Below are positions 32,748 to 61,503 of a stretch of 64,000 nt of DNA, piece after piece (within the stretch, counting starts at the first letter, position 1; each line of letters begins with the position of its first letter). The stretch covers positions 62,001-126,000 of the forward strand of contig CAJNOJ010000189.1 of NCBI GenBank assembly GCA_905250025.1. Reading direction: 5' to 3'. The notes below the pieces were generated by a model. That model ran no database searches and was not told where the DNA came from. It was given only the letters and a program-made list of their open reading frames with translations. The translations under genes and the position numbers were made by a program. This stretch comes from Adineta ricciae. Lineage: Eukaryota; Rotifera; Eurotatoria; Adinetida; Adinetidae.

Positions 32748-32751
32748 ATAC

Positions 32752-35063: not shown

Positions 35064-37865
35064 GTGATACTCTGTCGATAATCTTGGGAGATGTGGAAAA
35101 ACTCCTCTCCTTTGATATTCGATTCTGTTGATTGAGATGAATAAATCACAAGAAGTAAAATTCTCAATTGTTTTTCTGTTTTGTCGACCGAATGAAAAAG
35201 ATAAAGTTTGTTGCCCGAAGATGCACGCGTATGCATAGAAGAAGAGTGGTCTCAGTCGATGGCGAGTGAGAAAACGGTTGACATGGATGATTTGCCATTG
35301 TCATTGGTTCGCTTTTGGTAATGGAGAAGAGACTTGGTTGGATGTGTGTCTAGTAAGCAAGAGACGAAGAAAACAACAGGCTGCAAGGGTATTGATGGAC
35401 TACGAGACTGATGTCGACGATGAAGGTCATGATGATGATCATTGCGAGGACGGGGATAGGACTGACGAGAACAATTGATGATCGAGAGAATCACCAATCA
35501 TCACAATCAATACACACAGAGACGCATACATAGATGAGAACGGGATGAACCAAGAAACAGAGGTACCAACGCTTCATGACGCGATCTTGGTGCGGGTCAA
35601 CACTTAAATCAGGTCACTCCGTATTCCATGCAGCACTGTTCCACAAGTTTCCATTCTCTCCAAGTCATTGCATGATTATTGTCAATAGAAACACTGGGAG
35701 GAAGAGAGAATTGGAAGTCGAAGACGGAGAAGTTCAATGCCAGAGTGAAATGCATCGTTTTATGCACGTATGGTGATTCTTCGATCACTTCTGAAACATC
35801 ATTGCTGAGGATGAACGTGAGCAACGAGCGCAAGACTCACTTCCTTGCTAATCATCGTTAGCCACTTCAGGTCATTGACGACAGTCGTCTCCCCTCTTCG
35901 ATTTTTTTCGCGTTACTCTTTGCCCATTTTTTGTTTGCCTCCCGATCCTTCGCTCTTCTATTCGCTGCTTGAAATCACTCACCATATGATAACCGGCGTG
36001 CACCGACAATACGTTTCGTTACTGATTGGTTCTTCATTTGCTCTTGGATTCGATGATCTCTTTCATGGGGTTAGCCAGATTATTGGCACGCAGTGAGGAT
36101 TTGCAGATGTGAGAGAAGCGCGCTCCCTTCCTTCGTCTATTCATCCTTTGAAAAAACATCGAGGAGCGGAGAAGAGAAAGGAAGGAGCGATGAGAACCGA
36201 AGATGGTTCGAAAACGTTGATGGGAGATGGAAATCGCTCCGAAAGAAGTTCCAATCGAGAGCACTCATGCCAGACTGAATGAAGAAAGATCTAATGGAAG
36301 AGAAACAACTGCAGTTCATTCGTATTCTAACATTGCTTTTCTCTCTCTGATTCAGGTGAAGTCACCCAGAGATTGGTGGATGCAAAGAGAGAGAAACTGG
36401 CCTGCATCGCTCCACTTTTCAATACTCATCATTTGGCCACAAACTTCGAATTCGCTGGAAAGAAATTGCACCTCGCTGACATCAGTCATTGACCCTCGAA
36501 AGAACATCTGGTCAGAACTGATCCTTTTGTCCAAGAGTAACTTTGTGGCATGATGGAAGAGATACACAGAACATCCGAGCTGGAAATGATGCCAAAGTGA
36601 ACAGGAAATCGACTTTGAAAGAACTGTCCGATGAACTACGAGTAGAATTGAGAAACATTCTTCTCAGCGTCCTTAGAAATGCGGTTTGTCTACTGTGGTA
36701 AGCGAGAATAGAAAAATGTATTGTGTGACAGAACTGTGAGAATGATCTGAATCTTTGAACTGATCAAAACTGACCAAATGAAGGTCGAGAAGCAAGGAAA
36801 CGTTCAGTGAATCAGATCAAAGTACCTGACACTCACGTCAGTCCGATCTTCGGCAACCTTCCATTGACTCGTGCAATTCTTCACTATATATGCCTCGAAC
36901 GGGAGAATCAGAACGAGAGCGCGAGGACGAGTGACGATGTGCTCGTCTTCAGCGAACTGCGCATGAAGATGTTTTCCGTAGCTTTGTGCAGTTTGCAAAA
37001 CACTTCATCGACGAACAGTGTTGACGATAATGAACAAGACGGAGAACAGGTTCATCATATGCGGGATGATGAAATGGAAGTAGATGTACCAAGGATCATC
37101 AACAACACACCAAGTACAATACTCGTCTTGAACGTCAAAAAGATCTTCATCTACGAAGGAAGCACAAACCAAAAGTTCAATATTAAAAAATGATGATCAG
37201 CAAAAAAAGAATCGATACTGCCAACAGATACACTCTGGATCCAACTTGTCGGGACGATTCTTTGGCAAAAGTCAGAGAACAGATGATCTGGTCGCATGCA
37301 GACGAACTTCGTACCGTCGAAGATCGGAAAGAATCATCACGCAAACACGATGCATCATTCTTATAATAGTCTGTTTGTAAATATTCTCTGATCATTGAAC
37401 TCAAAACAACTGGCAAAAGAATCGAGTGTGCACAAATACACGCAAAGTTCATCGAAGAAACACTTTTGATCGATTCGCAGTTGACATCTTTTCACATCNA
37501 ACAGATGATCTGGTCGCATGCAGACGAACTTCGTACCGTCGAAGATCGGAAAGAATCATCACGCAAACACGATGCATCATTCTTATAATAGTCTGTTTGT
37601 AAATATTCTCTGATCATTGAACTCAAAACAACTGGCAAAAGAATCGAGTGTGCACAAATACACGCAAAGTTCATCGAAGAAACACTTTTGATCGATTCGC
37701 AGTTGACATCTTTTCACATCGTTGATGATAATATTTGAGAAGGACGAGATGAGGTTACTTCATGGTACCAGCAATAAACAGTTTATCGATACATTGACAC
37801 CGTTCGCTGGGACTAACGGCTGTCGATACAGATTCAGCAGGATATTTTTGTACAGTCGCTACATA
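35064..37865 (+). other. GC-richer stretch with unassigned coding-like pieces
   Basis: By eye this stretch has clearly more G+C than its neighbours. Plus-strand open pieces look coding: 'FNARVKCIVLCTYGDSSITS' (about 35720-35800), 'APKEVPIESTHARLNEERSN' (about 36233), 'EVTQRLVDAKREKLACIAPL' (about 36359), 'NRKSTLKELSDELRVELRNI' (about 36600), and 'TANRYTLDPTCRDDSLAKVR' with 'SHADELRTVEDRKESS' (about 37215-37340). They lie in different frames and I could not chain them with good splice sites. They may be a decayed or intron-rich gene, or several fragments. An acidic open piece 'DDVLVFSELRMKMFSV' lies near 36940. The last part repeats across the N at 37499. Confidence 0.35.
37279..37720. repeat. 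220-bp direct repeat around the N at 37499 (unmerged overlap)
   Basis: Bases 37279-37498 recur at 37501-37720 without visible change, directly on both sides of the single N. This is the pattern expected when two contigs with an overlap are joined by N rather than merged, so one copy is probably artificial. Confidence 0.85.
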
Positions 37866-39165
37866 GGAACTACCAGCGTTTTTCGTTGACCCAAAATTGC
37901 GTTCGGAATGAATTTAAACATCGTTCAGCTATTATCGTTTCTATATGAAATTTAAATTTAAATGTTGAGAATGAATATGTAATCATTTTCCATTGATTTC
38001 CATTACACACATCCGCATCGATAAATTGTTCCAAAATTTTGATTTCAAAATGACTTAAGTTTGGAAAATTCTGTAAAAATCGTCTGATTCCATTCATTGA
38101 AATATGCATCCCTACAAGGAATATACAAAACATCGTCTCACTTTCAATCAAAATCAATACATGAAAGAACCAACAAATCTCGATTTGCATTACGAAGTCA
38201 AGTCAAACAGCGATTCAGTCATTTTTGTGGAAAGGTGGTTGTTATGAACGTCTACTATGGTTATGCACTTACAGGGACTTGTTACATTAAGTCGTTTCAA
38301 TGAATAACATCGCTGATTTGCAGTAAAATCATATAAAAAGGCGAGACAAAGAGTGAGAGATTCGAGCTGAGGAGCATGTTGGAAAATTTCGTTCATATCA
38401 AATACTTGCGAAGAAAAATTCAACTTTAGATGAAGTAATTTGGGAAAATCCATCGATGTCAATGTCGTTGTATAAAGACTTTAATTGAAGGAATATTTCA
38501 TCACAAAATTGATGTAGAAGTGGATAAACATCGGTATGTCGTGCTCCTGCGTCCTCTCTGTCACTAATATCCACTTCTTTTCCACCTGATTTATTAAGAT
38601 AAACAGCCTGTAAATGTTTCAATTTAATCCAATTCGGTAATATTCGACATAATGATTCATATTCGATTTTTATCAATGAAATGACTTGTTCGGGTCGAAT
38701 CCATTTACAAATCAAATTGATTCGATATGTCGAATAAGATTTGATTACAGAATCTATTCAATAATTCACANCGTCCTCTCTGTCACTAATATCCACTTCT
38801 TTTCCACCTGATTTATTAAGATAAACAGCCTGTAAATGTTTCAATTTAATCCAATTCGGTAATATTCGACATAATGATTCATATTCGATTTTTATCAATG
38901 AAATGACTTGTTCGGGTCGAATCCATTTACAAATCAAATTGATTCGATATGTCGAATAAGATTTGATTACAGAATCTATTCAATAATTCACATTTAAAAG
39001 TGAATAGAAAATTTCATTTCCCCAATGATGATCAAATATCAAATACAATAATTCAGTTGGTAATTCATCAAATAATCTGAATCGCTGTTGTACAGACGAA
39101 CATGTAGAATTGTTTTTTTTCTTTCAGAAGGTAAAGATATTTGCTTGCGGTAATAATGTTGAAAG
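37866..39165 (-). pseudogene. F-box/LRR pseudogene spanning an assembly overlap
   Basis: On the minus strand an F-box piece ('QQRFRLFDELPTELLYLIFD') at about 39020-39110 is followed by an in-frame TGA near 38990. The LRR region comes next ('ICKWIRPEQVISLIKIEYES', 'LKHLQAVYLNKSG'). A frame change near 38480 precedes 'MDFPKLLHLKLNFSSQVFDM' and 'CYSLKRLNVTSP', then a GTAAGT donor. A second exon piece 'GIRRFLQNFPNLSHFEIKIL' ends near 37870. The order matches the gene at 23555-25566. The normal start codon and most of exon 2 are absent. Part of the LRR region appears twice because of the N at 38771, which should be counted once. Confidence 0.7.
38550..38992. repeat. 221-bp direct repeat around the N at 38771 (unmerged overlap)
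   Basis: Bases 38550-38770 recur at 38772-38992, directly flanking the single N, with no differences seen. The explanation is the same as at 37499. Confidence 0.85.
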
Positions 39166-39383
39166 ATAAAAGTAAGATTTGAAATGTAAGTAATTCCCAT
39201 TGTTTTATCTAATCTTTTTCTTATCAACAGCTACATTTTCTAACAGAATCATAAGAAATGATCAGAAGGAGATTTATTATTATGAATTTAAAAGAATTTG
39301 TTTAACAAGAATAAGAATTCTACACATAGTGTTCCTAAAGAGATGATTTGTCATAAACAATGAACAAAACCAAATCCTATTGA

Positions 39384-40308
39384 TTACGAATCCGAATCCG
39401 AACCCAAATCAGCACAGCCATGGCGACGACATAACGCACAATTAGGATGACAATTGCCATTTTCGTGTTCGAATCTTCTTCGTTTAAAACAATACCGACT
39501 GATATGACCAGCTTTACCACAAAAGTAACAAACTTAAAAGACAAAATCAATACGTTGAAGTTGTTAATTGAAGAAATTCAACTTACTACGAGTATCAATA
39601 TTCATTTGAGATTCCGTACGCTTAACTCCAACTAAAAATAGACGATTCCACATGAAAATAGAAGAGACTTTCAATTGAAAACCTGGATTATTATTTGGAA
39701 CAATATTCGAAACCTTCGATGAATCAACACTGCCAGCCGAATCTGAAAGAAACAGATATTTACGGTATGAAATCATTGTTTGTTTATTTACTCGATGTCA
39801 CAACAACTGAAATGCTGTTGATGAGCATTGCTGAATTCCTTTGAAGAACAATATTCGATAGATTATCGAATTGAGTGGCTAATTTTCCTAAATCTTCGTT
39901 CCATTGTCGAAGATCTGTTTCATAAAAATCATTTTCTTTTCGATATTGTCGTAATTCCCGACTGATCGTATTCATATCAACTTCCATTTGTTTGATATAA
40001 TCAGTTGTATGTTTCGCTACAGCTTGTTTAATCGCTTGTGCTTTCTCTTGAATTATTTTGATTGATTCATTTTCCCAATCATTAACTTCTTTGATTACAG
40101 CATGATTTTGTAATTTGCCTGTTTCATCGATGATCTTTTGTTGAAAAACATTATAATTTGTTTCAATGACTTCTAATTGTTTACTTAATTCTTGTCGATG
40201 ATCTGTTGAATGATTAAAACAGAATTCTTCTAAACATCCACCACATCTTAATGTCGCTTTGTCTTTATTACATGTGACACAACGATTTCGACCAGGTGCT
40301 GTTGTCAT
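39384..40308 (-). CDS. B-box/coiled-coil protein with C-terminal CCHC zinc knuckle
   Basis: Three exons fit: 39792-40308, 39587-39742 and 39384-39532. They total 822 nt, 273 aa plus stop, with GTAAAT and GTAAGT donors. ATG 40308 gives MTTAPGRNRCVTC. Residues 9-35 form a B-box-like finger ('NRCVTCNKDKATLRCGGCLE', 'EFCFNHSTDHRQEL'), followed by about 130 residues of coiled coil ('WENESIKIIQEKAQAIKQAV'). The last exon carries 'CYFCGKAGHISRYC', a C-x2-C-x4-H-x4-C zinc knuckle, then a Cys/His-rich and acidic tail ending 'DLGSDSDS'. The B-box/coiled-coil part matches the family that normally continues into NHL repeats (compare 12501 and 14905); here a nucleic-acid-binding knuckle replaces them. Probably an RNA- or ssDNA-binding TRIM-like protein. 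Confidence 0.8.
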
Positions 40309-43027: not shown

Positions 43028-46000
43028 TCAACGACGACGAATTTGCTGTTGCTGCTCCAGTTGATTATCGATCGCATCATTTAGATTGTGATGAGCTATA
43101 TTTCTCTGTCCCCAAGGTTGTTGCCGGTTAATCGCTGTTTGGTAAGAAGTTATTTTAATGTTGCCTAATGCGTGTTTAAGTTTAGCAACGTTGTTTTCAG
43201 CAGTTGTCAATTGTTTACGTTTTTCTATCCATCGTTTATTCGCATCCTCTGCTTTTTGTTCTAAACAATCCTTCTTTGCTCGACGTTGATCAAGATCAGC
43301 TTTGAGATTACTATTTCGGCGATGTCGATCATCATAAACGTGTTGTTTCTGTTCAATTTGTTTCGATAGTTGCTCAAGTTGTTCATTTCTTCGATGAAGA
43401 CCTTGTTCTGCCTCAGTTAATTTACGTGCATTCATCTGAATATAGATCAACGGAGCGAATGAGTCGTTTTCTGTTAGATTTATTTAAACATGGCTTTATA
43501 GTCACCTGTTTTTCTACTTCAAGTTTCTGTATGGCTTGTCTCATTTGTTTACTATTTGTTTCATTCTCGTGCAGATCTTGCTCATTTTGACGAATCTGTA
43601 TTTTGACTTGTTCAAAACGTGCGACACGCTGATCATATTGTGATTGCAATCGAATTTTTTGTTGTTCCTTTGCTTTCAAGTCATCTTTGACCTTATCAAC
43701 TTCACCACCCTTTTCCATCATGGCATCGTTTTGCGTATCAAGCTGGACTTTCAAATCTTGTACTTGTTTACTATATTGTTGCTTCTGCTGTTGACTTTGT
43801 TCAACCTTTGCTTTCAGTTCTTGCTGTTCTGAACTGACCTTTTGACGTTTCTCTTGTTCCCTACGAAGATTATTCTCTTGCTTTCTTTTTTCACTTTGTA
43901 TTTCTTCTTTATTTGACTCAGCAAGTCCAATATCTTGATTGAGCATATTAACGTTATGTTTAGCTTGTTGAGCTTCTCCTTGCTTAGCAGCGTGTTGGGC
44001 TTGTTTAGCGCCAAGTTGTTGTTGTTTCTGGCCAACTTCGGCTGCTGCACCTTGAACATTTCGTTGCTTAGCTGCGAGCTCTTCGGTATTTGCTTGAATA
44101 GCAGTTTCGGCCGCCTTGTGTTGTTCTTTGACTTCTTTCAGTTCATTCTCCTTTTCAGTAAATGCTTCTTGTGCTTCTGCATGTTCTTTTTCTAATTTGG
44201 ACGCTTCATCTGTCAATTGTGTTACCTTTTCCGACTGTTTTTTAACTTCAGCTTCGGCATTATCAACTTCCTTCTTTTTCGTTGTCTGTTCGTTTTTAGC
44301 TTCGTCTAATTTGTTCTCAGTTTCTTTATGATGACTAGTAGCTTTTTCTACAACTACTTGCTGTTCGTTGACTTGTCGTTCAGCCTCATCTTTTATTGTA
44401 GTTTGACGTTTCAATTCGTCCTGTTTGGTCTTAAGTGTTCGTTCTTCTTCAGCAAGCTTTTCACGAGCTTGACGTGTTTTGTCACTTGCAGCTTGATGCG
44501 CCATTGTGGCCTCTTGGAATTTCTTCGACGCCGTTGACATCTTCTGCTCTGCTTGAGTCATTTGCAATCGACAGTTGTTCAACGCCTCTCGAGCACTTCG
44601 AACTGCTTGTTGTTTGCTAGGAAGGATATACTTCTGCTCGTTAGATCGTGCTACTCTTTCATCATATTCGGCCATTTGAAGGGCGTGTTCAGCTTTCTGA
44701 AGTGCGAGCTTTGCGTTGTTCACCTCTGTCTGTGCAGTTTCTTCTTGACTCTTTGCCTTCTCCATGTTTTGTTTTTCTTCCGTCTCCTTTTGTTCGCATG
44801 ACGATGTCTCGTTCTTTGCGTTGTTAACAACTGTTTCTTGTTCTTTAACGGCATTTTCCATATCCAGTTTAGTTTGTTCCTCTTTCCGTAATGTTTCCGT
44901 ATTTTGTTTTAACAGTGCTGTCGCTGCGTCAAGTTCTTTTTTCGCTTCTGCTACAGCTTGTTCGAGTTTAGCCACTTGCTGTTCAGCCTTTTTCAAATCT
45001 TCCTGCTTTTTAGTCAATTCTTCTTCAAGTTTCTTTTTCTCTTCTTCACCTTTTTTCAATTCATCTTGTTTAGCTTCCAGTTGCTCTGCGAGATCATCGA
45101 GTTCGGTTTGTGCATCTTCCAGTTCCAGTTCGATTTCTTTTATTTTTTCTCTAGAAAAAGAAACGATTCAACTGTGCATTAGATTAAAATTCTATGAAAG
45201 CACGGTGTAGTGTTCTCAGCCATTGGCCTTACTTTTTTTAACTGTCCCTGACGATATTAGTGTAACACTTACTCTAATTCAGCGAGTTCCGATTCAGCCT
45301 TCTGTAGTTTTTGTTGACTTTCATTAGCTTCCCCAGCCATTTGAGCTAGTTGATTTTGTGCCTGCTGCAATTCACCTTCCAATGATTCGACAGCAGCTTG
45401 TAATTGTTGAGCTTCTGACTCTGCTGCCTTTTGTTCTTGTTCAGCTGCCTGCTTTTCTTGATTTTTTTGTTGAATTAATTTCTCAATCTCACGTTCCTTC
45501 TTCTCTGCCTAAACAATATTATACAGTTTCATGTCTTGTTATTGTTGCGCAACTTCTGAAAACGAGAGTTCTCGATTTCGTCGTTTGTTTTTCAACTTAC
45601 TTGTGCGAATAGTTCTTCAAGCCGTTCAATTGAGTCTTCTAAACGTCTTATTTCATTTTCGACTTCCTGCATGGTTTGTGTTAGTTGTTGAATGTGCGCA
45701 TTTTGTTTATTCAATTCTTGTTCACATCGAGCTATTTCTTCTTCTACTTGACGTATTTTCTCGGTTATTTGCCGAACGACTCGTTGCAAAGCAGCTAATT
45801 CTTTTTCTAAATTTTTCATCTGCTGTTCTATTGGTGCTCGCTCAGCATCAATTTTAGCTATTTCCTTTTCAAGAGAAATTTGTTCATTTTCAACCACTTT
45901 CAATTCTTCAACAAGTTCATCTTTTCTTTTTTCTAACAAACGTTTATTGTTTTCCAAGACTTCCATTTGTTGTCCAAGATCAGCTATTCGTTTTTGCTCT

Positions 46001-46479
46001 TCATTGAGTAGTTGCTGTTTTTCGTTGAGCATCGCGTTCCATTTGTCACTCTCAATAACGAGTTCCAACTGTTGTTGACGAGATCTTAGTAATTCTTCTT
46101 CAGCAAGTTCAACTTCTTCAGTGTGTTTCATCAATCTACTATTCGCTTGTCTTAGATCTTTTTCATAAACATCTTGTTCCATACGAAGTTGTTCACGTTG
46201 CCCCTGGATGTCGTCGAGTTCTAGTTCAGCAGTATCAATTTCTTCATTTATATTCTCAATTTCTGCTTGAATATGCGACACACGCTGTTCATCTGTTGGA
46301 TTCAAAGTCTCGAGACCATGTTTTATTTCGTCAAACATGTCATACTCTTGTCTGGCAATCAGTTCATCAGCAACACTTAATTCACTTAATTCATAATTAC
46401 GTGAAAGCTGTAAATACTCTCTTTGCGATTGTTCTTCTTCTTGCTCCTCTTGTTCTCTCTTCTTGCGTGAAGTTGCCAT
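43028..46479 (-). CDS. Long coiled-coil protein, 1055 aa (copy 1)
   Basis: Four exons fit: 45601-46479, 45273-45508, 43506-45150 and 43028-43435. They total 3168 nt, 1055 aa plus stop, with GT-AG introns. Nearly the whole chain is heptad-rich and made of E, K, Q, A, N and L. The N-terminus is basic/acidic ('RKKREQEEQEEEQSQREYLQ') with a short conserved block 'ADELIARQEYDMFDEIKHGL'. The middle shows repeated words such as 'VEKATSHHKETENKLDEAKN' and 'AAEVGQKQQQLGAKQAQHAA'. The C-terminus is Q-rich. No motor, kinase or membrane domain is visible, so it is probably a structural filament or tether (lamin-, golgin- or SMC-like by shape only). Open frames on the opposite strand are by-products of composition. 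A paralogue follows at 46678. Confidence 0.85.
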
Positions 46480-46677
46480 AATCCTTATTATAGAATAATC
46501 TACAATAATAATAAAGTCGATACAGTGTCAACAAAGAATTCTTCATAAAAGTCCTCATTGGTCTGTGTGTATATAGTACTGTTACGGTTCTATTATTAGC
46601 TGCAATTGCCTATAAAATAGTTATACGTACAAGTCTTTCACATGAAACGATATACAAGAATGGCATCAATGAGGTTC

Positions 46678-48604: not shown

Positions 48605-48781
48605 CATGAAGAGAGAACAAGAGGAGCAAGAAGAAGAACAATCGCAAAGAGAGTATTTACAGCTTTCACGTAATTATGAATTAAGTCAATTAAGTGTTGC
48701 TGATGAACTGATTGCCAGACAAGAGCATGACATGTTTGACGAAATAAAACATGGTCTCGAGACTTTGAGTACAACAGATGA
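48605..48781 (+). pseudogene. Inverted, truncated copy of coiled-coil exon 1
   Basis: The plus strand encodes 'KREQEEQEEEQSQREYLQLS' and 'ADELIARQEHDMFDEIKHGL', nearly the same as the start of the minus-strand gene at 46479, then stops at the N (48782). It lies head to head with copy 2 at a small palindrome, CTTCACGCATGAAG. It is either an inversion of copy 2's own first exon or a chimeric contig end. Confidence 0.65.
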
Positions 48782-48782
48782 N

Positions 48783-51700
48783 TCATCAAAACCAGAAATC
48801 GCATGTAAAAATCTTTCTAACGCATATATGAAAATGGCGACAAAAAGAAATCAAAACTCAAGGGAAACAACAAATACTACAGCCAAGACAACAACTACAG
48901 AACTTTTTACAACGACTACACTATCTAAACCTTTGTCACAGATAATCTGCCAAATACTAATCAAACGAAATCAACCATTGGTTATCGATTTTATTCACAA
49001 TTTTCTACTATCCCCAATAGCTCAGACTACCTCATCTCATCAAAAGTAACTATTTATTAATATTACATGATAACAATCTTCTCAATGCGATCTTTAGATC
49101 AGACACAACAACAGCTGCTTTATCTTCAAATCACTTGATTCATGGAATTCTACCTCCTGATTCTACGCTACACATTTTTATTCGCTCACAGTTACGAGCG
49201 CGAGGTGGTGTTATCAATGTCGGTCGTTCGTTGACTAAATTTCCATTGGTAGAGTCAATAACCGTCGTTGACGAGTTTGATACTTGGAATTTCGATCAGC
49301 TACGTGATCTATTCGAATTAATTCTTGTTCCAGAAGGAGAAAAATTTCCATTGGTCTGGGAATTAGCACCTGATGTACAAATTCTCTACCTCTTTGAATT
49401 GTATGGGCGAAACAAAACGAATGATTATGAAAATCCACAAACTAACAGAAATGCTGATCAACCCAGCAGAGCATCTTTAGAACAATTTGTGATTGACGTT
49501 TGTGAAAAAGAAAATAATGGCATGACTAATAAATGGCTTCAGGCCTTATATGCAGATGATATCATTGCTTTTGATCATCTGGCTAATTTAAAATTTGCAG
49601 AATGGGATAAACTCAAATCATTATCATTGAATGGAAAAAAGATTCTCAAATCGTACGTGGATCGAGCAAAGCAAACAGTCAGCGATGTTCAAACAATCAC
49701 AAAAGAAAATAAAACCAATCCGACTGAAAATCGTAAGTAATATTCTATTAAAAATCTTTTACGGTTTAAATTTAAGTAATTCGTACTTCACATCATCTTT
49801 TCATACGTATAGAATCAAAATCGGAACTTCTTGCTTATCTTCATCAGATAAAATTATATTTTCATTATGTTCTTGCTGAACAATTTGCTCAAGCTGGAGT
49901 ACGAACTCCTGCTAAATTGAATGCTGAATGTGTTCATTTAGCATTTCAAGAGATGCGTGAAGGTGGTTTTTCTGATGATGGCCTTTTCGATCAAATGAAA
50001 ATGTTTTTTCTTCCACTTACAATGGTTAAAAGAGATTTAGATATTGATCGGCCACGATGGAGAATCATTTCTCAGCGAAATCAGCAAGAAAAACAACGAT
50101 TATTGGAGGAAAAAGAACGTCTACTCGAAGAATTGAGCGAAAAGGAAAATCTATATTATGAAAAAGATGATAATATTGAGAAATTACGAAGAGAGATCAA
50201 TTCAAAAAAGAAAGTATCAACAAAACTGGATAATGATGAATATGGAAACTATACAACGTTGGACTTGCTGAATATAAATCGACGAGCAAAGGAACAATTA
50301 GGATTTGATCGAAATAGGTTGCATACACAACTTCAACATATTGAAGATCTATTAGATAATATCAATCGGATCTTAAATAGTCATGATGACAACAGTAACA
50401 AAAAGAATGAAGGAAACTTGATCAAGCCAAATCGAGGTTTCATCATGTATGGACCACCGGGTAAGTTTGTTTTTAATTGACGGTAAAAATTTATTATATT
50501 AATGAATGATGAGTTCTCAGGTACTGGTAAATCAGATATTATGAGTAAATTATCAACACGTATGGGTGTGAATATGGTCGCACCTCCACTCGCTGCTGGT
50601 GAACTGAATCGATCATTGGTAGGTGAATCAGAGCGTGTTATTCTGGATATTTGTGTGCGTTGTCATCGAACACCGTNAATGGCATGACTAATAAATGGCT
50701 TCAGGCCTTATATGCAGATGATATCATTGCTTTTGATCATCTGGCTAATTTAAAATTTGCAGAATGGGATAAACTCAAATCATTATCATTGAATGGAAAA
50801 AAGATTCTCAAATCGTACGTGGATCGAGCAAAGCAAACGGTCAGCGATGTTCAAACAGCCACAAAAGAAAATAAAACCAATCCGACTGAAAATCGTAAGT
50901 AATATTCTATTAAAAATCTTTTACGGTTTAAATTTAAGTAATTCGTACTTCATCATCTTCTCATACGTATAGAATCAAAATCGGAACTTCTTGCTTATCT
51001 TCATCAGATAAAATTATATTTTCATTATGTACTTGCTGAACAATTTGCTCAAGCTGGAGTACGAACTCCTGCTAAATTGAATGCTGAATGTGTTCATTTA
51101 GCATTTCAAGAAATGCGTGAAGGTGGTTTTTCTGATGATGGTCTTTTTGATCAAATGAAAATGTTTTTTCTTCCACTTACAATGGTTAACAAAGATTTAG
51201 ATATTGATCGACCACGATGGAGAATCATTTCACAGCGAAATCAGCAAGAAAAACATCGATTATTGGCGGAAAAAGAACGTCTACTCGAAGAATTGAACGA
51301 AAAGGAAAATCTATATTATGAAAAAGATGATAATATTGAGAAATTACGAAGAGAGATCAATTCAAAAAAGAAAGTATCAACCAAACTGGATGATGATGAA
51401 TATGGAAACTATACAACGTTGGACTTGCTGAATATAAATCGACGAGCAAAGGAACAATTAGGATTGGATCGAAATAGGTTGCACACACAACTTCAACATA
51501 TTGAAGATCTATTAGATAATATCAATCGGATCTTAAATAGTCATGATGATAGTAGTAACAAAAAGAATGAAGGAAACTTGATCAAGCCAAATCGAGGTTT
51601 CATTATGTATGGACCACCGGGTAAGTTTGTTTTTAATTGATGATAAAAATTTATTATATTAATAAATGATGAGTTCTCAGGTACTGGTAAATCAGATATT

Positions 51701-53722
51701 ATGAGTAAATTATCAACACGTATGGGTGTGAATATGGTCGCACCTCCACTCGCTGCTGGTGAACTGAATCGATCATTGGTAGGTGAATCAGAACGTGTTA
51801 TTCTGGATATTTGTGTGCGTTGCCATCGAACACCGTATCTCATGTGTTGTGTATCCATCGATGAGATTGATTCATTGGCACCGAANAATGATGAGTTCTC
51901 AGGTACTGGTAAATCAGATATTATGAGTAAATTATCAACACGTATGGGTGTGAATATGGTCGCACCTCCACTCGCTGCTGGTGAACTGAATCGATCATTG
52001 GTAGGTGAATCAGAGCGTGTTATTCTGGATATTTGTGTGCGTTGTCATCGAACACCGTATCTCATGTGTTGTGTATCCATCGATGAGATTGATTCATTGG
52101 CGCCGAAACGTACAGATGATTCAAGTGATGTGAATGTATCAAAACTTAGTGTTCTATTATCAGTCATCGACGGTATCAAAGATGTTCCTAATCTGATGAT
52201 TTTCTGTGCCACAAATCGTTTACATATGATGGATGAAGCATTTTTACGACGTATGAATGGAAAATACTTTGTTGGACGACCATCATCTCGTGCTCGAAAG
52301 AATATGTTAAGTCAAATGAAATCCTGGCATGTATCACCACAGCTACTAGAACGCTTGACTATGGCTACAACTAATTTCAGTGGAGCTGCAATCAGGTTAG
52401 TACCATCAATGAAATAATTGGTGAACGATATCTTTTATTATAGTGCACTTCGTCGTGAAATTACGGTGTATTGTATTGATAAAGAACGTATTAATCCTCG
52501 TTATCAACTTGACTATCGCACAATGCTTCAAATAGCAGACACAACAGCAAGACAATTTCGTATTTTTATCGGCGCAGAAACTTTACCAACTCTTTTATTG
52601 CGTACTCTCCATGACGATCAATTACTAGAAGATGATCAACAATTAAAATCACGATTTAATAACTTACCAGATAAACCCAGATCGTCATATACTGGTAAGA
52701 TTCTTGTTAATCTGCATGCACGTCGTATTGACATTGAAACCATATTTACACATGATGGTTCGGGTGAACATGAAAAAGTCGTCAATCAGGAAGATTTACT
52801 CGATTCAGAAACTAATCTACAAGAGCTACTTGAACGCTTGACTGCCTATGGAAAATCACGTAATGTGCAATTATTCCAATTAATCGATCTCAATTTACTT
52901 ACGACAGAAAGTGCTTATGATGAAAAAGACAAATTCGAAGTTTTAAAAGAACGTCTCGATGAATGTGCCGCTTATCGTCGTTCAATGATTGTCTACGATT
53001 TAGATTCATTAATTGGTGTAAATAAAAGTGAAGGAAATTCTTCAATGGGTCGATCAACTAATTTTTCTTTAATCAACCAAAATGTTTACACTTACGTAAA
53101 AGATAAATTTCAAAGTGCATATGTTGAATCTTCAATGCAATCGTCGAATACTACTGAAGACGATAGTAATGATATAATTACTACTGAGAAATGGACTGTC
53201 ATGGTTATTCGTGATCCATTTCTTCTTCGTCAATTCTGCGATGATGTTCAATTTACACGCACACAAAGTGAAATTGATGAAGAACAAGCTGAAATGCGTC
53301 GTGCTGATGAACGAATTAAATGTGTTCAATGTAATGATTATTATATAGAACAAGACAATAAGATGGGTGTTTGTGCACATCATGATGGATTTGTCTATGA
53401 TAATCATTCATTGACACTTGAACAATGGGGTCAACGAGCTGCAGTAGAACAATTACTGAAAGAAGAAGCAGCTGCTATACAGATGGCATTAAAAGGTCCT
53501 TTACCAGCAGAAGATAAAGAACGATTTGAACGTGAAAAAGTACGTTTTAAATACATATGTTGTAATCAAACCATGCAAGTTGGCAATTCGATGGGCGGTT
53601 GTAAAAGAGGAAAACATAGTTCACCCGGTGTCACTTTGGTCGAATGGGAACATGAATGTGATCACAATCGAGAATATAAAGATAAACTATTGAACTTACT
53701 TGAAAACAGAATTCGACAATAG
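48783..53722 (+). CDS. Large AAA+ ATPase with C-terminal Cys/His motifs (exons partly repeated by assembly)
   Basis: Counting overlaps once, the exons are 48783-48980, 49021-49732, 49813-50460, 51903-52395 and 52444-53722. They total 3330 nt, at least 1109 aa, and the 5' end is lost at the N at 48782. A long N-terminal region with coiled coil ('ISQRNQQEKQRLLEEKERLL') precedes one clear AAA+ module: Walker A 'MYGPPGTGKSDI' (split by an intron), Walker B 'CCVSIDEIDSLAP', sensor 1 'IFCATNRLHMMDEAFLRRMN'. The last exon may hold a degenerate second module ('SMIVYDLDSLIG'). It ends with Cys/His clusters ('KCVQCNDYYIEQDNKMGVC', 'YICCNQTMQVGNSMGGCK') that probably bind zinc. AAA+ enzymes use ATP to unfold or remodel proteins. 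The duplicated exons 50678-51885 are discussed with the N junctions. Confidence 0.83.
49516..51836. repeat. 1.16-kb direct repeat around the N at 50677 (unmerged overlap)
   Basis: Bases 49516-50676 (AAA exons from mid exon 2 to the start of the Walker A exon) recur at 50678-51836 with a few base changes. The copies abut the N, and the second begins mid-exon, as expected for two haplotype contigs laid end to end. Confidence 0.85.
51665..52107. repeat. 221-bp direct repeat around the N at 51886 (unmerged overlap)
   Basis: Bases 51665-51885 recur at 51887-52107, covering the intron end and first part of the Walker A exon, with about three base changes. Only one copy is expected in the genome. 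Confidence 0.85.
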
Positions 53723-54193
53723 GGTGAGGATGAACGTAGCAGATCTTTTTCGTCAATCCCATTCTCATCTACATCCTCATCGTCACTCCCAAAAAATAAA
53801 TCGCAAAACTAAGTGAAAATGTAAAAGTTCGAATTTAAAAAAGTGAAACAATAAAAACATAGATGAAGGTTATTATCAGCAAAATATAAGAAGTGATCTG
53901 ATATTAAGAAGAATTCTATGTATTAGAATACAAGAAATAATATAGGTGACAAAGATTTGTAAAATCGACCAAAGAACTTGAGCTTGAGCGGATGACGAAG
54001 AAAATACCAATTTCTTAAATAACAAACGTGTTACACATTCGCAAAACTCTTAAGCTACATGATCTTTCAAGTTTTCATGCCATTCAGAATAAGTTTTTGA
54101 TTCTAAACGAAAAATATTCCGATTGAGGTCGTTGTTCATCATTCGAGAACTGAGAAAACAAAATCAAACAATCACAATCAGTGTGATTCAAAT
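53723..54193. other. Intergenic, no gene
   Basis: It begins with a degenerate AGGGTGAGGATG motif after the ATPase stop and its inverse about 50 bp later. No gene was recognised. Confidence 0.4.
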
Positions 54194-54940
54194 CGACTTA
54201 CACGCTCACGAAGCCAAAAATGAAAAAGTTCAGATGTACGATTATTTTCTGACACAGAATCAATTCGACACATTGCAGAACAATGAATATATCATTCAGA
54301 ATCATTTGTAGATCAAATTTCGAGGATCTTTTCGTCCTGTCCGCTGATAGATGAATAAAAAATGATATACTTGATACTTGTTTGAATAGACCAATAATAT
54401 AAATAATATCTGATCTTGGTTTGATAGGCCATGTACTCAGATGTTCAACTATGATGGAAATTATCATTAGAAGGTCGTAGATGCTTTTCTTCGAGCTGTT
54501 CGCCATGCGACATTGTAAATCTAATAGAGAACTTTGGTCTGGTATATCTCTATCTAATTGTATTCCTTCAAAATATAAAGTATGAAATGTTTTGGCATAT
54601 AGGACGGTATATCTTTCGACAAAGAAAAGTAATTAGGATCAATTATTAAACACTGAATTTCATTCAGATCGATAACGAAGACATATGGTAGACCGAACTT
54701 AGAAAGAGAAACAGTAAATAAACATCGATTTTGACAAGCGACAAACCAACGTTTCTGTTCAATCCCAAAACGCGTACGAAATCAATCGAAGTTTCTTTCA
54801 TATGAAATTTCAAAAATGAATACTGAGAAGTGTTGGGGAATTCTTTCTCGCCGAAATCTATCAATGAAACTTCTATCCGCAAATCCAAATCAATTTTTCA
54901 GCTGAATTGGAAAATTTTTTGAGGATTTGTACAGAACAGA
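54194..54940 (-). pseudogene. Relic of the F-box/LRR family's last exon
   Basis: Pieces such as 'EHLSTWPIKPRSDIIYIIGL', 'FKQVSSISFFIHLS' and, upstream, a segment with 'RFWIEEKRWFV'-like sequence in broken form follow the order of exon 2 of the gene at 23555. Several frame changes and missing parts make it non-functional. Confidence 0.55.
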
Positions 54941-55933
54941 TCGTGAAAAGAAAGTCTGTTCGACGTACATTGAATTATTACAACAAGTTTTCGTGATGAA
55001 CAGCAGAGTTGAGATTCGTGGAAAACACCAAGAAAAAGTATTGGAGATTTCAATTGTGACGTCCGTTGAAGATTTGAACATGAATGAAGAATTTCCGTTC
55101 GTTAAACATTTGAAAAAAGATAAGCGATTCTCAAATGAATACGAATATCTTCGTTGATCTCCGTTTGTCTTCAGTAGTTGTCAAATGAAAAACGAATTTG
55201 TTCACAGGTAGACCACTTACAGAATGACAGTGAATCTGCATATGGATAACAAAAACATCAAGAGCAAACGCGTGACTGAGATTCAAATCCACACACACAC
55301 CCTCAAGATTGATACGTATACGTAAACATAATAAGGGTTCCTTTCAATGTCAACACCTGACTTCTTGGAAAGAATTGATCCAGTTCTGTTTCCTTTAATC
55401 GTTTTAAAATGAGGATTTAAAAGAGAAATTGATGTTATCAACATGATTATTCTATTGACGGCGCAATGACATAAAAGAGACAAAATGGATGTTTTGATTG
55501 GTTTATGTGTATTTTTCAGAGGTTGGATTTAATTAGAACCACCTTATTGCAAATTTTTACTCGACTGAAATAAACATTCGTTATAAATAAATAAGAAATC
55601 TAAAGAGTATCGTACAATTTATATTCAAAGTAAAGTTATTATGAAAAGATTTTAAAAGAAAAGATTGAGAAAGTCAAAAGTACTTGAATTGTAAAAAAGT
55701 ATATATTGAAAATGATTAATAAAGTATGCCGACTGGCGTTACTGTTGACATTAGAAAATCCGTTAAGTCTTAATTTACTAAAATAGTTAAGCGACGGTTT
55801 TCGTTGTGTTTGACAAATCGCATGTGATCATCCGCTTATTTAACTGAGCACATTCCGTTCTATTTGTGATCCTTTCGTTAACAGACAAAAAAACACTTTG
55901 TGTGCATTATTTGATTATACACAACATATTCGT
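54941..55933. other. Intergenic, no gene supported
   Basis: A 76-codon open stretch at 54927-55157 has no family signature. A CACACCCTCAAG motif lies at 55300. No RNA gene was seen. The 3' part should hold the promoter of the first receptor gene. Confidence 0.4.
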
Positions 55934-57030
55934 ATGGCATCTTCTTTAGTTTCTACATTGGCTTTTGCTCAAATAATTCTTGTTCAATATGTTGAATTAA
56001 CTTTATTTATCGCTGGTACAGTTGGTTCTCTACTCAATATTCTGCTTTTTTCTCAAAAGAAATTTCGTTCAAACTCTTGTTGCATTTGTATGAGATGAAG
56101 AGAATTCATTTTTCTATTATGTTTTGTTTTCTTTTTATCTCGATAGATTTTCTTGCAGCATCGATCTCAACATTAATCATGCTTTTCGTAGGTATTCTTC
56201 CTCAAATCTATGCTCTCAACCACACTCCAAGTGAACTATTCAATGACAACTTATGTAAAATTCGAACTTATTTAGCTCAAGTGAATGCCATGGCCTGTCG
56301 ATGGTTATTAACAATTGCATGTATTGATCGTTGTTTGTTAACTTCGGCCGACGCTCGCTTTCGTCGTTTGGCGACGGCACCAATAGCACGAAAAATAGTT
56401 TTCTTCCTTTACATCGTTTGGATTTTAATTCCTATTCACGCGCTGATCTTTGAAGAGACTCGAAGAGTCGGCTATTTTATTTGTATAATGTCAACTGATG
56501 CATCAGCTATTTATCATAATATTTATACAATCATCGCTGGCGGGATCCTTCCACCATTAATTATGTTGGCCTCTACGAAAATTCTCTGGGCAAGTTTACA
56601 AGCAAAGCGACAGCGTCGAGAATTGATTGAAGGAAGACAGAGAAGAAATGAAACTCAGGATACTCAAGTTCTTATTATGCTACTGTTACAAGTTGTCATC
56701 TTCATCGTGTTCACTTTACCGTATATGTCATCGAATCTCTATTTTGCATTCACTCGTTCGGTTACAAACAAATAAGCAGATCGGTTAGCAATTGAATCGT
56801 TTGTCTACTCATTCACAGAAGTGGCGGTATTTGTTCATCCTGCTGTCACATTCTATTCAAATACGTTAGCCTCACGAACATTTCGAAATGAATTATTCAT
56901 TATTATTCGGAAAATTCTAATTAACGTTTGTCGCCAACGTTTTTACCATATACGAAGAATTCATCCAGGTACTTTTACAGCAACAGGAACGCATCGGCCA
57001 AATAATTTACCAATGATTCCAATAAATTAA
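55934..57030 (+). pseudogene. Rhodopsin-like GPCR, copy 1, with a premature stop
   Basis: Exon 1 is 55934-56087 (MASSLVSTLAFAQIILVQYV) and exon 2 starts at 56147, joined in frame across a GTATGA...GATAG intron. The chain shows helices 1-6, including 'CRWLLTIACIDRCLLTSADA' (the D-R-Y/C region after helix 3) and 'MLLLQVVIFIVFTLPYM' (helix 6). After 'FTRSVTNK' a TAA at 56773-56775 stands where the paralogue at 57755 has a Ser codon. Beyond it the frame continues open through helix 7 ('VTFYSNTLASRTFRNELFII') to 57030. As read, the receptor would lack helix 7 and should not signal. Sequencing error or recent loss are both possible. Confidence 0.8.
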
Positions 57031-57754
57031 CATTGAGCATGGAGACCACTGCATATTCTCATTCGTGGACATGTAACGTCACTGTAACCATATCGTTAAT
57101 CGTTCAACTAAAAACTGTCGTTTTTTTTCTGATGGGTTTGGTTACAGGTTTTTTTCATCTGACAAACTGGAAAAGGTTTAATCGAGAGATTCCATTTTGA
57201 TATTAGAAAAACGAGTGTGGGTTAGTCTTCGTATTGGTAATAAAAATGTCAACACTCAAATCCGCAAGATGAAGGGTAGATCGGATGAACGATAAAAAGA
57301 GATCAGTATTCACACCCTCAAGATTATGTCTCAAATTATTTCTAATAAAAAAAATATGTCTTATTTCAAATCTTTACTTAACAGAAATGAATATTAGCAA
57401 CAGAGAACATTGAAACCTTTTGATGTTCCAGATAAAGTCACATCACATTAAAAACGATATTAAAAGACAAGACAAATTAAGTGAAGCATCTGAATTGTAA
57501 ACGAGTTTATGATTAAAGTCTCCAAAAATAGAAAGAAAAGATCAATCAACAAGACTATGAATGCTCAAATACAAAAGTTTTACTTCAAAGAAAACCCAAC
57601 GAGTTTTCATCAAAAAAGTAATGAATCAAATGCTTTTCTTGTGTTCACAAGTTGAATGTATCCATCCTCTTGTATAATTAAAAACTTCTATTTTTGATTC
57701 TTTTTATAAACAGACAAGAATCTTTACAGCGTATTATATTTCTGTGCGCACCGT
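57031..57754. other. Spacer between tandem receptor genes
   Basis: AT-rich sequence with CACACCCTCAAG at 57310; no gene. Confidence 0.45.
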
Positions 57755-58804
57755 ATGGCGTCTTTCTTAGTGTCCACATTGGCTTTTGCTCAAATTATTC
57801 TTGTTCAATACGTTGAAACAATTTTTTTCGTCTTGGGTACAATCGGTTCCATTCTCAATATTCTCCTGTTTTCTCAACAGAAATTTCGTTCAAACTCTTG
57901 TTCTATTTGTAAGTCAGCACAATGCTTTTTTAATCTTATTAATTTTCTTTCTATTTCGAAAGATTTTCTCGCGTCATCGATCGCAACATTGATCTTACTA
58001 TTCCCAGGTGTTATTCCTCAAGTCTATGCTCTCACTAACTCTCCAAATCCAGTATTTAATCAAGCATTCTGCAGAGCTCGCAGTTATTTAACACAAATGA
58101 GTGCGATGCTCTGTCGATGGTTGTTGACGGTCGCATGTATTGATCGTTGTTTATTAACTTTCACCAATCCTCATCTTCGTCATCTGGCGACTGTACCAAT
58201 AGCACGGAAAATAGTTTTACTACTAGTTATAATGTGGCTTCTCATTCCTATTCATATATTGATCTTCGCTGATGTTCGAAGAATCGGTTATATTTTGTGT
58301 ACGATGGCAACTGATGCATCGGCTATTTATCATACTATTTACACTATTCTTGCTGGTGGGGTATTCCCACCGTTGATTATGTTAATATGTACGAGAGTTC
58401 TCTGGAAAAGTTTGCAAGCAAAACGACAACGTCAAGAGTTAACTCAGATAAGACAAAAGAAGAGAGAAATTCGTGATGTACAAATCTTGGCTATGTTGTT
58501 GTTACAAGTGTTCATCTTTATTCTGTTTACTCTACCGTATATGATGTTTAACCTGTACTTAGTTTTTACTCGTTATGTTACGAACAAATCGGCAGATCGA
58601 TTAGCAATAGAAGCATTTTTGCAGTTATTTACAGAAATAACGATGTTCGCTTATCTCTCAACAACATTTTATTCGAATACATTAGTTTCGCAAACATTTC
58701 GAAACGAATTAATAACCCTCATTACTTGTAATCATGGACAAAAGTTTTGTAAAAAGCGACGAATCGCTCCGCATAATTTAACCGTAATAATCCGGCAAAA
58801 ATAA
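57755..58804 (+). CDS. Rhodopsin-like GPCR, copy 2
   Basis: Exons 57755-57908 and 57963-58804 (54-bp GTAAGT...GAAAG intron) give 331 aa and keep frame; reading through the intron would also stay open, which can mislead gene finders. Seven membrane segments are visible, with 'NILLFSQQKF' after helix 1, a Cys at the top of helix 3, 'CRWLLTVACIDRCLLTF' (D-R-C in place of D-R-Y), a basic third loop ('LQAKRQRQELTQIRQKKREI') and 'TTFYSNTLVSQTFRNELITL' in helix 7. It is a class A receptor of the peptide- or chemo-receptor kind; the ligand is unknown. It is the intact tandem neighbour of the stopped copy at 55934. Confidence 0.88.
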   Translation: MASFLVSTLAFAQIILVQYVETIFFVLGTIGSILNILLFSQQKFRSNSCSICKSAQCFFNLINFLSISKDFLASSIATLILLFPGVIPQVYALTNSPNPVFNQAFCRARSYLTQMSAMLCRWLLTVACIDRCLLTFTNPHLRHLATVPIARKIVLLLVIMWLLIPIHILIFADVRRIGYILCTMATDASAIYHTIYTILAGGVFPPLIMLICTRVLWKSLQAKRQRQELTQIRQKKREIRDVQILAMLLLQVFIFILFTLPYMMFNLYLVFTRYVTNKSADRLAIEAFLQLFTEITMFAYLSTTFYSNTLVSQTFRNELITLITCNHGQKFCKKRRIAPHNLTVIIRQK

Positions 58805-58927
58805 AATCAACAGATTTGTATAAGTGTAAGATGTTTTTTTTTGATTGGTCGATAATATCATCCATTGTTGATTTTGAGTGATGATGCATTTCGTTTTTGC
58901 ATTTATTACCTGTTAATACTTTTGCTC

Positions 58928-59986
58928 ATGTTGATTTGCTTTCTGTTGTGTCTGTTACTTTGTACGATCATTGCAAACGGATCAAATTGTCAGTCTTCTA
59001 CGATTTATCCTCCATTAGATCGACCTGGTCCATCGTATACAGTTCCACGACGGAACCTCTCTCAATCTTTGGTATGCTATGCAGGAACGAATTATCACAA
59101 ACGATGGATTCTATTTTTACCGGGTTCAACTGAAGAAGTTCATGAATTGTACAGTTGGAATTGGATGAACATCATGAAAAAGAGACATTGGCCATTTTGT
59201 ACGTTACAGTTACCCGAGAACGGTTTGGGTGATCTGCAAATAGCTGCAGAATATATAGTTCATTCAGTACGAAAGTTGCACCGAAGGGCCGTTCGAGAGA
59301 AGAAGAAAGGTATTCGTTCGAAAACACGTATTCATATCATTGGCCATTCACTTGGCGGAGCACTTCCGCGTTTTGCACTTCGGTTTTGGCCAGATATACG
59401 ATCAATGGTCTACCAATTGATTGCCTTCGGAGCAACGAATCACGGAACATCGATGGCTGATACAGCGTGTCAAGCGTTTCGTTGCCCGATCTCCGTAACT
59501 CAACAACGGATCAACTCCTCATTTCTTTGCGCGATGAATTCTTATCAAGAATCGTTTTCTTCGATAAGATACATAAATATTCTGTCGAAATTCGATGAAA
59601 TCGTCCGCCCGGTGGAAAGTAGTGAAATTCACGGTGAAACTGTCACAAATATCTACATTCAAGATATTTGTCCACTTCGAATCTTTTCCGAACATCTCGG
59701 TGCAGGAATTTATGATTATTGTGGATATTTTCTAACAATGAATGCATTAAATTCTCGATCGTTGAAAAATATCTCCAAGGAAGAATGTTGTTCACAAATC
59801 TTGATGCCTGGTATTGATACGCCAACCACAGAATTTCTTTCCAAAGTTCTCTATTCGGCTGAAGAACATGCCAGACAATTACTTATGCATTTTGGAGAAA
59901 TCAAAGACGAACCGGAACTAAGATGTGTATTTCGAATGGATTGTTTAACAAGAAAGAAGAGAGTCAAGCAAATGAGATTAAGATAA
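58928..59986 (+). CDS. Secreted lipase-like alpha/beta hydrolase
   Basis: ATG 58928 gives 352 aa starting with a hydrophobic signal or anchor ('MLICFLLCLLLCTIIANGS'). The nucleophile elbow is 'IHIIGHSLGGALPRFALRFW'. 'FGATNHGTSMADTAC' matches the NHGT motif of CalB/LipA-type lipases. 'ILSKFDEIVRPVESS' and 'FSEHLGAGIYDYCGYF' supply the likely Asp and His of the triad. It also has several paired Cys. These enzymes hydrolyse ester bonds, often of lipids. The segment before the ATG is open in part, and the partner copy at 60313 has one more T there, which would extend its N-terminus. It follows the receptor gene by about 120 bp on the same strand. Confidence 0.85.
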   Translation: MLICFLLCLLLCTIIANGSNCQSSTIYPPLDRPGPSYTVPRRNLSQSLVCYAGTNYHKRWILFLPGSTEEVHELYSWNWMNIMKKRHWPFCTLQLPENGLGDLQIAAEYIVHSVRKLHRRAVREKKKGIRSKTRIHIIGHSLGGALPRFALRFWPDIRSMVYQLIAFGATNHGTSMADTACQAFRCPISVTQQRINSSFLCAMNSYQESFSSIRYINILSKFDEIVRPVESSEIHGETVTNIYIQDICPLRIFSEHLGAGIYDYCGYFLTMNALNSRSLKNISKEECCSQILMPGIDTPTTEFLSKVLYSAEEHARQLLMHFGEIKDEPELRCVFRMDCLTRKKRVKQMRLR

Positions 59987-60071
59987 TCTCAGATATCAAA
60001 GAAGAACTTTATAAATTTGTGTTTTGATAGGAAATTCTCGCATAAATATCTACTGTATTTGTTGAATGTCN

Positions 60072-60238
60072 TAACGGTGTTCGCTTATCTCTCGACAACA
60101 TTTTATTCGAATACATTAGTTTCACGGACATTTCGAAACGAATTAATAACCCTCGTTACTTGTAATCATGGACAAAAGTTTTGTAAAAAGCCACGAATTG
60201 CTCCGTATAATTTAACCGTAATAATCCAGCAAAAATAA
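60072..60238 (+). pseudogene. Duplicate of the GPCR 3' end after an N
   Basis: It encodes 'VFAYLSTTFYSNTLVSRTF' to 'YNLTVIIQQK', the last 55 codons of the receptor at 57755 with a few changes. It starts right at the N (60071), so it is most likely the start of an overlapping contig, not a third gene. Confidence 0.75.
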
Positions 60239-60312
60239 AATCAACGGATTTGCGTAAGTGTAAGATGTTTTTTTTCATTGGTCGATAATGTCATCCATTG
60301 TTGATTTGAGTG

Positions 60313-61419
60313 ATGATGCATTTCGTTTTTTGCATTTATTACCTGTTAATACTTTGGCTCATGTTGATTTGCTTTCTTTTGTGTCTATTACTCTGTACGA
60401 TCATTGCAAATGGATCAAATTGTCTGCCTTCTTCGACTTATCCTCCATTAGATCGACCTGGTCCATCTTACACAGTTCCACGATGGAACCTCTCTCAATC
60501 TTTGGTATGCCATGCGGGAACGAATCATCACAAACGATGGATTCTATTTTTACCGGGTTCAACTGAAGAAGTTCATGAATTGTATAGTTGGAATTGGATG
60601 AACATCATGAAAAGGATACATTGGCCATTTTGTACGTTACAGTTACCCGAGAACGGTTTGGGTGATCTACAAATAGCTGCAGAATATATAGTTCATTCAG
60701 TACGAAAGTTGCACCGAAGGGCCGTTCGAGAGAAGAAGAAAGGTATTCGTTCGAAAACACGTATTCATATCGTTGGCCATTCACTTGGCGGAGCTCTTCC
60801 GCGTTTTGCACTTCGATTTTGGCCAGATATACGATCAATGGTCTATCAATTGATCGCCTTCGGAGCAACGAATCATGGAACATCGATGGCTGATACAGCG
60901 TGTCAAGCGTTTCGTTGTCCGATCTCGGTAACTCAACAACGGATCAACTCCTCATTTCTTTGTGCCATGAACTCTTATCAAGAATCGTTTTCTTCGATAA
61001 GATACCTCAATATTCTGTCGAAATTCGATGAAATCGTGCGTCCGGTGGAAAGTAGTGAAATTCACGGTGAAACTGTCACAAATATCTACATTCAAGATAT
61101 TTGTCCACTTCGAATCTTTTCCGAACATCTCAGTGCAGGAATTTATGATTATTGCGGATATTTTCTAACAATGAATGCATTAAATTCTCGATCGTTGAAA
61201 AATATTTCCAAGGAAGAATGTTGTTCGCAAATCTTGATGCCTGGTATTGATACGCCGACAACAGAATTTCTTTCCAAAGTTCTCTATTCGGCTGAAGAAC
61301 ATGCCAGACAATTACTTATGCATTTTGGAGAAATCAAAGACGAACCGGAACTAAGATGTGTATTTCGAATGGATTGTTTAACAAGAAAGAAGAGAGTCAA
61401 GCAAATGAGATTAAGATAA
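60313..61419 (+). CDS. Secreted lipase-like hydrolase, second copy or allele
   Basis: ATG 60313 (MMHFVFCIYYLLILWLMLIC) opens a 368-aa frame identical in layout to the gene at 58928, with the same 'IVGHSLGGALPRF' elbow, NHGT motif and Asp/His candidates. Only a handful of residues differ (e.g. Y to C/H and L to S in loops). The whole 58638-60070 segment, including 3' flank, repeats at 60072-61503 around an N. I think it is an allele or homologous copy placed in tandem by the assembler, though a true duplication cannot be excluded. Confidence 0.75.
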   Translation: MMHFVFCIYYLLILWLMLICFLLCLLLCTIIANGSNCLPSSTYPPLDRPGPSYTVPRWNLSQSLVCHAGTNHHKRWILFLPGSTEEVHELYSWNWMNIMKRIHWPFCTLQLPENGLGDLQIAAEYIVHSVRKLHRRAVREKKKGIRSKTRIHIVGHSLGGALPRFALRFWPDIRSMVYQLIAFGATNHGTSMADTACQAFRCPISVTQQRINSSFLCAMNSYQESFSSIRYLNILSKFDEIVRPVESSEIHGETVTNIYIQDICPLRIFSEHLSAGIYDYCGYFLTMNALNSRSLKNISKEECCSQILMPGIDTPTTEFLSKVLYSAEEHARQLLMHFGEIKDEPELRCVFRMDCLTRKKRVKQMRLR

Positions 61420-61503
61420 TCTCAGATATCAAAGAAGAACTTTATAAATTTGTGTTTTGATAGGAAATTCTCGCATAAATATCTACTGTATTTGTTGAAT
61501 GTC

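Follow-up and report, generated by a model that had tools for sequence, protein, structure and literature searches.

Repeated flanks at single-N junctions in an Adineta ricciae contig: probable unmerged overlaps and haplotypes in series

Single-N junctions in the window

The stretch of Adineta ricciae DNA analysed here, 64,000 nucleotides in length and called the window throughout, corresponds to positions 62001-126000 of contig CAJNOJ010000189.1 (C189); coordinates without a contig name refer to the window, and C192, C836, C391, C123, C508 and the like denote other contigs of the assembly. It carries an AAA ATPase gene, G protein-coupled receptor (GPCR) genes followed by two lipase-like open reading frames (ORFs), and a gene remnant on the minus strand, and it is interrupted by eight Ns, all of one base (12500, 14904, 37499, 38771, 48782, 50677, 51886 and 60071). 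The first-pass annotation, drawn from the letters of the window, had noticed that at five of them (37499, 38771, 50677, 51886 and 60071) the left flank recurs to the right of the N, and had proposed that these repeats are contig overlaps left unmerged by the assembly. Measurement of the flank repeats by self-BLAST and direct left/right comparison bears out the recurrence at the same five junctions: in every case the last base of the left copy and the first base of the right copy adjoin the N.

The five junctions fall into two classes. Three are overlaps of 221 bp: around N 37499, 37278-37498 is identical to 37500-37720; around N 38771, 38550-38770 is identical to 38772-38992; and around N 51886, 51665-51885 differs from 51887-52107 by three mismatches. 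The other two are long and inexact. At N 50677, 49516-50676 and 50678-51836 share 1,131 of 1,159 aligned bases with two gap columns (97.6%; 97.4% by BLAST), and at N 60071, 58638-60070 and 60072-61503 share 1,376 of 1,431 with three gap columns (96.2%; 96.0% by BLAST). The lengths reported initially hold for 38771 and 51886 (221 bp each) and for the long pair (about 1,160 and 1,430 bp), and the 'about 220' given for 37499 is in fact 221. Flank comparison found no direct left/right overlap at 12500, 14904 and 48782.

An overlap of constant length

The survey was extended to 16 single-N sites, comprising the eight of the window together with C189:152976, C189:182480, C192:12474, C836:9148, C508:28767, C391:57772, C391:59277 and a site on C123 near 267676. 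This sample is non-random: similarity to the AAA gene brought in C391 and C123, and similarity to the AAA and GPCR-lipase stretch brought in C836 and C508. Exact end-to-start overlaps occur at five of the 16 sites (37499, 38771, C189:182480, C391:57772 and C391:59277) and measure 221 bp every time; N 51886 is the sixth site of this length, so that the six are spread over two scaffolds and three lie outside the window. At the remaining ten sites there is no exact overlap of at least 15 bp in flanks of up to 3,000 bases (774 at the shortest, where the fetched locus ended). No overlap was found at a gap of 35 Ns (C189:179221), and C391:46000-55900 contains no single N. As a control, 9,034 random internal positions with N-free flanks of 1.5 kb were drawn from C189:2001-186000 and C192:1-80000, and none had an exact end-to-start overlap of at least 30 bp.

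The six 221-bp units have no common sequence (best cross-match at most 14 bases, E at least 0.4), and the length therefore looks like a technical constant. The same value emerges when C189:2001-186000, C192:1-80000 and C836 are compared all against all: in the resulting listing of maximal exact repeats, which starts at 100 bp, 221 occurs four times, each time touching a single N, and is the only length above 147 bp seen more than once. The fourth of these repeats matches a contig end in the window, 12279-12499, to the interior of C192 (19502-19722), with the next base differing. Further N-touching exact repeats in this listing are 243, 218, 212, 191 and 172 bp long.

The 221 bp are best read as a fixed graph overlap between contigs that was left unmerged. 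Neighbouring graph contigs would share an end overlap of this length, and the scaffolder would have juxtaposed them, unmerged and with one N, at 37499, 38771 and 51886. Of the properties of an unmerged de Bruijn overlap, constant length at the joins is observed (221 bp at six of 16 sites, and no other exact length), and exact identity is found at five of the six; 51886 fails the strict form. Platanus run at k 222 would yield 221. Such a setting is at odds with the 100-base short-insert reads of the 2018 A. ricciae study (PMC5916493; here and below, published sources are cited from excerpts).

A second way to obtain such joins is by a gap filler that extended the contig edges from reads up to a limit and never joined them. 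This would likewise be an artefact, and it competes with the fixed graph overlap as the origin of the 221-bp repeats only. GapCloser is named in the methods for other assemblies of the paper that describes A. ricciae ARIC003 (excerpt of PMC7943196), and contig ends elsewhere carry stretches that are also found nearby (48598-48781, inverted, and C836:8936-9147). A fixed overlap length is unexpected, however, from two independent extensions across gaps of varying size, and the match between contig end 12279-12499 and the C192 interior stops exactly at 221. Gap filling is thus an unlikely source of these repeats.

Comparison with putative allelic contigs

C192 aligns, mostly reversed, to parts of window 1-43271; the larger blocks are 90.6-97.4% identical and one reaches 99.4%. 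We read it as the allelic contig despite its different order of genes. The unit at 37499, which is the end of contig 14905-37498, occurs once in C192:1-80000, where an indel of 71 bp divides it in two (C192:30895-30839 and 30767-30586). The second copy expected of a real tandem is thus missing from the putative allele, and C192 alone is still compatible with an allele-specific duplication. Of the unit at 38771, the first 121 bp occur once in C192 (29756-29636, 100%), after which the sequences diverge. The spans agree: window 37139-38670 exceeds its C192 counterpart by 133 bp, the difference between the 222 bp of repeat and N and the 89 bp of the indel together with the 18 bp shared at its end. 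A search of the genome (1,033 contigs, 130.46 Mb) with 37200-38800 returned no further copy above 78% among the best candidates scored.

The short contig of 1,271 bp between the two Ns, 37500-38770, has an exact 221-bp overlap with each neighbour and may be a piece of the other haplotype: 37539-38670 is 99.4% identical to C192:30767-29636, compared with 90.6-97.4% for the remaining blocks of the 34.5-40.7 kb interval. The second overlap (38550-38992) repeats part of the minus-strand gene remnant that had been called an F-box pseudogene. This name finds no support in Pfam, as none of three ORFs tested around the 38771 overlap matches an F-box family; ORF 38980-39123 contains a putative F-box-like stretch, judged by motif only.

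The order conflict between C192 and the window has its own features. Block 34553-38670 sits between the C192 equivalents of 4106 and 4882, and 11339-12499 is oppositely oriented in C192. The only N in C192:1-80000 is at 12474; hence, on the C192 side, the order breakpoints are not at an N. That N is accompanied by the absence of about 1.7 kb relative to C189, of which no allele-level copy was found elsewhere in the contigs searched (best 85%); alternatively, the absence may be a real haplotype difference.

The comparison with C192 also provides a baseline of divergence. Across 88 windows of 200 aligned bases the median identity is 95.75%, with a 5th-95th percentile range of 90.5-99% whose lower tail is cut, as only blocks above 400 bp and 88% identity were taken. 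Both long overlaps, at 97.6% (50677) and 96.2% (60071), fall inside this range and thus differ at the allelic level, and in both a gap, the single N, lies between two copies on one scaffold, as in heterotype false duplication. The earlier suggestion that differences within the long overlaps may record haplotype divergence gains from these identities and from the phasing of mismatches in the AAA gene.

In the AAA gene (plus strand) three contigs meet. The end of contig 48783-50676 (49516-50676) carries AAA-gene exons and is read as haplotype A; the short contig that follows (50678-51885, 1,208 bp) carries the same exons and is read as the other haplotype, placed in series. The last 172 bp of the left contig (50505-50676) are identical to the start of the right contig (51887-52058), so that the three contigs overlap one another. 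Left and middle contigs mismatch at distances of 13 and 43 bases from where the left one ends, and these are the mismatches that separate middle from right 62 and 92 bases from the middle contig's end (offset 49). Left and right have no mismatch in 172 bp, and one and the same pair of sites sets the middle contig apart from each of them; the phasing therefore leads us to read left and right as one haplotype and the middle as the other. Among the matches listed for 49516-51836 there is no other allele, the other matches lying within 67-78%. The overlap around N 51886 (51665-52107) falls within a single open frame (51647-52417) and stays in frame because 221 plus one makes 222, or 3 x 74. Pfam AAA is matched on both sides of this N, at profile positions 8-70 on the left and 8-130 on the right, which supports the gene name given at first. 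The repeat of the N-terminal part of the AAA domain at 51886 is very probably spurious.

At N 60071 (plus strand) the end of contig 51887-60070 (58638-60070), with the 3' end of a GPCR gene and the first lipase-like ORF (58856-59986), is followed by the start of the next contig (60072-61503), with a GPCR 3' end and the second lipase-like ORF (60310-61419). The copies are identical over the left contig's last 243 bp and 4-5% different before; the right-hand copy is read as the other haplotype, switching back near 61261. Both ORFs have the same weak Pfam hits, with Palm_thioest and PGAP1 below cutoffs and Lipase_2 at 20.5 and 20.2 bits against a cutoff of 20.3, which places the name lipase at or under the thresholds.

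C836 aligns piecewise to 52096-58711 and to 61274-62185. Its identity is 95-99% as far as about 53.7 kb, 67-90% from there to about 57 kb, and 87-97% beyond. At its N (C836:9148) the sequence passes at once from a third GPCR start, matching 57783-57994, to the counterpart of 61274. Lipase similarity in C836 lies to the right of this N, the sole significant protein-level match (9121-9291) extending 27 bases to its left, and no significant lipase similarity was found in the 1.3 kb after the second GPCR of C836. Should the third GPCR start correspond to the second GPCR of the window, C836 would be missing about 1.8 kb (57995-59840, numbered on the left copy); the differing part of the extra window copy, 60072-61260, would then account for some 1.2 kb of this gap. 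In its simplest reading, a piece of the C836 allele would have been put into the wrong scaffold. The extra piece is not directly comparable with C836, since it is absent there; over the 230 bp common to all three, the window copies agree with each other throughout, and C836 departs from them at seven bases. On C836 itself, 6595-6806 and 8936-9147 are 212 identical bases of GPCR start, the second copy ending at the N, which suggests that C836 carries a third, tandem GPCR.

Alternatively, and for this junction alone, the GPCR-lipase unit could be truly tandem on one haplotype, as part of a fast-changing, allele-specific array, with the artefact limited to the 221-bp joins and the AAA gene. Such an array is conceivable because the same GPCR displays a tandem change of its own on C836, with its three GPCR starts. 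C836 itself is interrupted by an N inside the lipase. We regard a real array here as quite unlikely, and prefer a misplaced allele at 60071.

Not every single N marks an overlap. The generalization that all of them do was rejected, since 12500, 14904 and 48782 are without one and sequence is absent relative to C189 at C192:12474 and C836:9148; as the latter two demonstrate, a single N need not denote a small or negative gap. The 184 bp directly left of N 48782 (48598-48781) are an inverted copy, 97% identical, of 46289-46472, the start of a coiled-coil ORF, and may be a chimera of amplification or a true inverted copy. Region 43279-48673 has a strong AT skew (-0.38 at 44001-48000) and long coiled-coil-like minus-strand ORFs, within which two stretches share 68% identity; among the matches listed for 45500-49500, none was an allele in another contig. 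Stretches 12501-14530 and 14966-16993 are 92% alike and were considered as a sixth overlap, which was not adopted: the copies do not meet at the N, and they are members of a dispersed family represented at 87-93% on C157 and C270 and more weakly on numerous contigs. N 14904 is where a high-copy repeat of some 375 bp ends. Two long imperfect palindromes, 29463-29703 and 32749-33110 (81% and 85% self-complementary), are perhaps small inverted-repeat elements.

Origin of the repeats and known parallels

Overall, the sequence evidence makes it very likely that the repeats at the five junctions, considered jointly, are an artefact of assembly and not real duplication. Fixed end overlaps would account for the 221-bp joins. 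At 50677, and most likely at 60071, the assembler would have kept both contigs of haplotypes that differ by a few per cent, and the scaffolder would have laid them in series with one N. The reading as unmerged overlaps that was put forward at the outset is thus supported by the constancy of 221 bp, the copy number in C192, identities in the allelic range, the phasing of AAA mismatches and the gap in C836. The argument offered for it, that real duplications would not begin and end exactly at an N, reached the right conclusion and is weak by itself, because assemblers also break at real tandem repeats. The program step responsible, and the absence of reads with two copies in series, we infer.

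Several observations weigh against this account. The overlap at 51886 carries its three mismatches, and the exact runs that end the long overlaps are 172 and 161 bases around 50677 and 243 and 5 around 60071, not 221. The gene order of C192 is unlike that of the window, so that its allelic standing is a matter of interpretation, and at 38771 it bears on the first 121 of 221 bases only; for 49516-51836 the contigs searched yielded no allele with which to compare copy number. The repeated GPCR start in C836 indicates that a real tandem change may exist nearby, though the copy ends at an N. To our knowledge, 221 is not among the SPAdes default overlaps. In the excerpted methods for ARIC003, the A. 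ricciae assembly that the present one probably represents, SPAdes defaults are named for single-individual samples, the scaffolding step is unstated, and no k yielding 221 is given; the ARIC003 DNA came from whole-genome amplification of about 200 animals with one common progenitor (PMC7943196).

Real tandem duplications at most junctions, with the assembler breaking inside true repeats and the N as an unresolved border, are very improbable. Graph assemblers do break at repeats, tandem paralogues exist here (the GPCR pair 55931-56895 and 57752-58711, 74% identical, and the extra GPCR start in C836), and the lipase-like ORF is open in both copies. Yet one shared length across six unrelated sequences is unexpected for real duplications, C192 carries the 37499 unit once and part of the 38771 unit once, the AAA mismatches phase as two haplotypes, and C836 is devoid of significant lipase similarity in the 1.3 kb following the second GPCR. 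A 221-bp mobile element, or some other repeat of that size, would explain the fixed length and was rejected as having a negligible chance, since the six units share no sequence and each adjoins an N.

With an artefact of assembly as the preferred explanation, the second lipase, the extra ATPase exons and the F-box-like fragment should very probably not be counted as real genes. Counting each locus once leaves, by coordinate arithmetic, a surplus of 222 + 222 + 1,382 + 1,433 = 3,259 bp. It follows that some single-N joins in this assembly carry an unmerged 221-bp overlap or, on our reading, a misplaced allele. Since 221 plus one is a multiple of three, a join of this kind can mimic an in-frame domain repeat, as at 51886; screening N sites for exact 221-bp or allele-level overlaps would flag such joins.

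Both kinds of artefact are already in print, and what is added here is the list of loci and the constant of 221. Among the papers listed in literature searches, none dealt directly with single-N marks left by scaffolders or with palindromes of Adineta vaga as artefacts. Heterotype false duplication, as described in the excerpts of PMC9516828 and PMC2864568, resembles 50677 and 60071 in having two allelic copies on one scaffold around a gap, with false gains of genes or exons; in the present case a single N forms the gap, the host is probably a bdelloid rotifer, and the likeness is drawn from sequence alone. The overlap of de Bruijn contig ends, K = k-1 (PMC5368935, in excerpt), resembles the 221-bp joins as a fixed-length, exact overlap of neighbouring contig ends, whereas 221 is long for short reads, matches no setting stated for the present assembly, and would call for a different assembler or for reads that are long or merged. 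In Adineta itself, homologous blocks on the same scaffold and breaks of collinearity have been described, some of the breaks in the 2018 A. ricciae paper lying at scaffold Ns and possibly being scaffolding errors (PMC5916493, in excerpt). Allele divergence and same-scaffold blocks of this kind have been sought in bdelloid assemblies as signs of ameiotic evolution; the junctions of the window likewise place homologous copies on one scaffold, in overlaps of 0.2-1.4 kb, unlike the published blocks, which consist of genes (PMC5916493).

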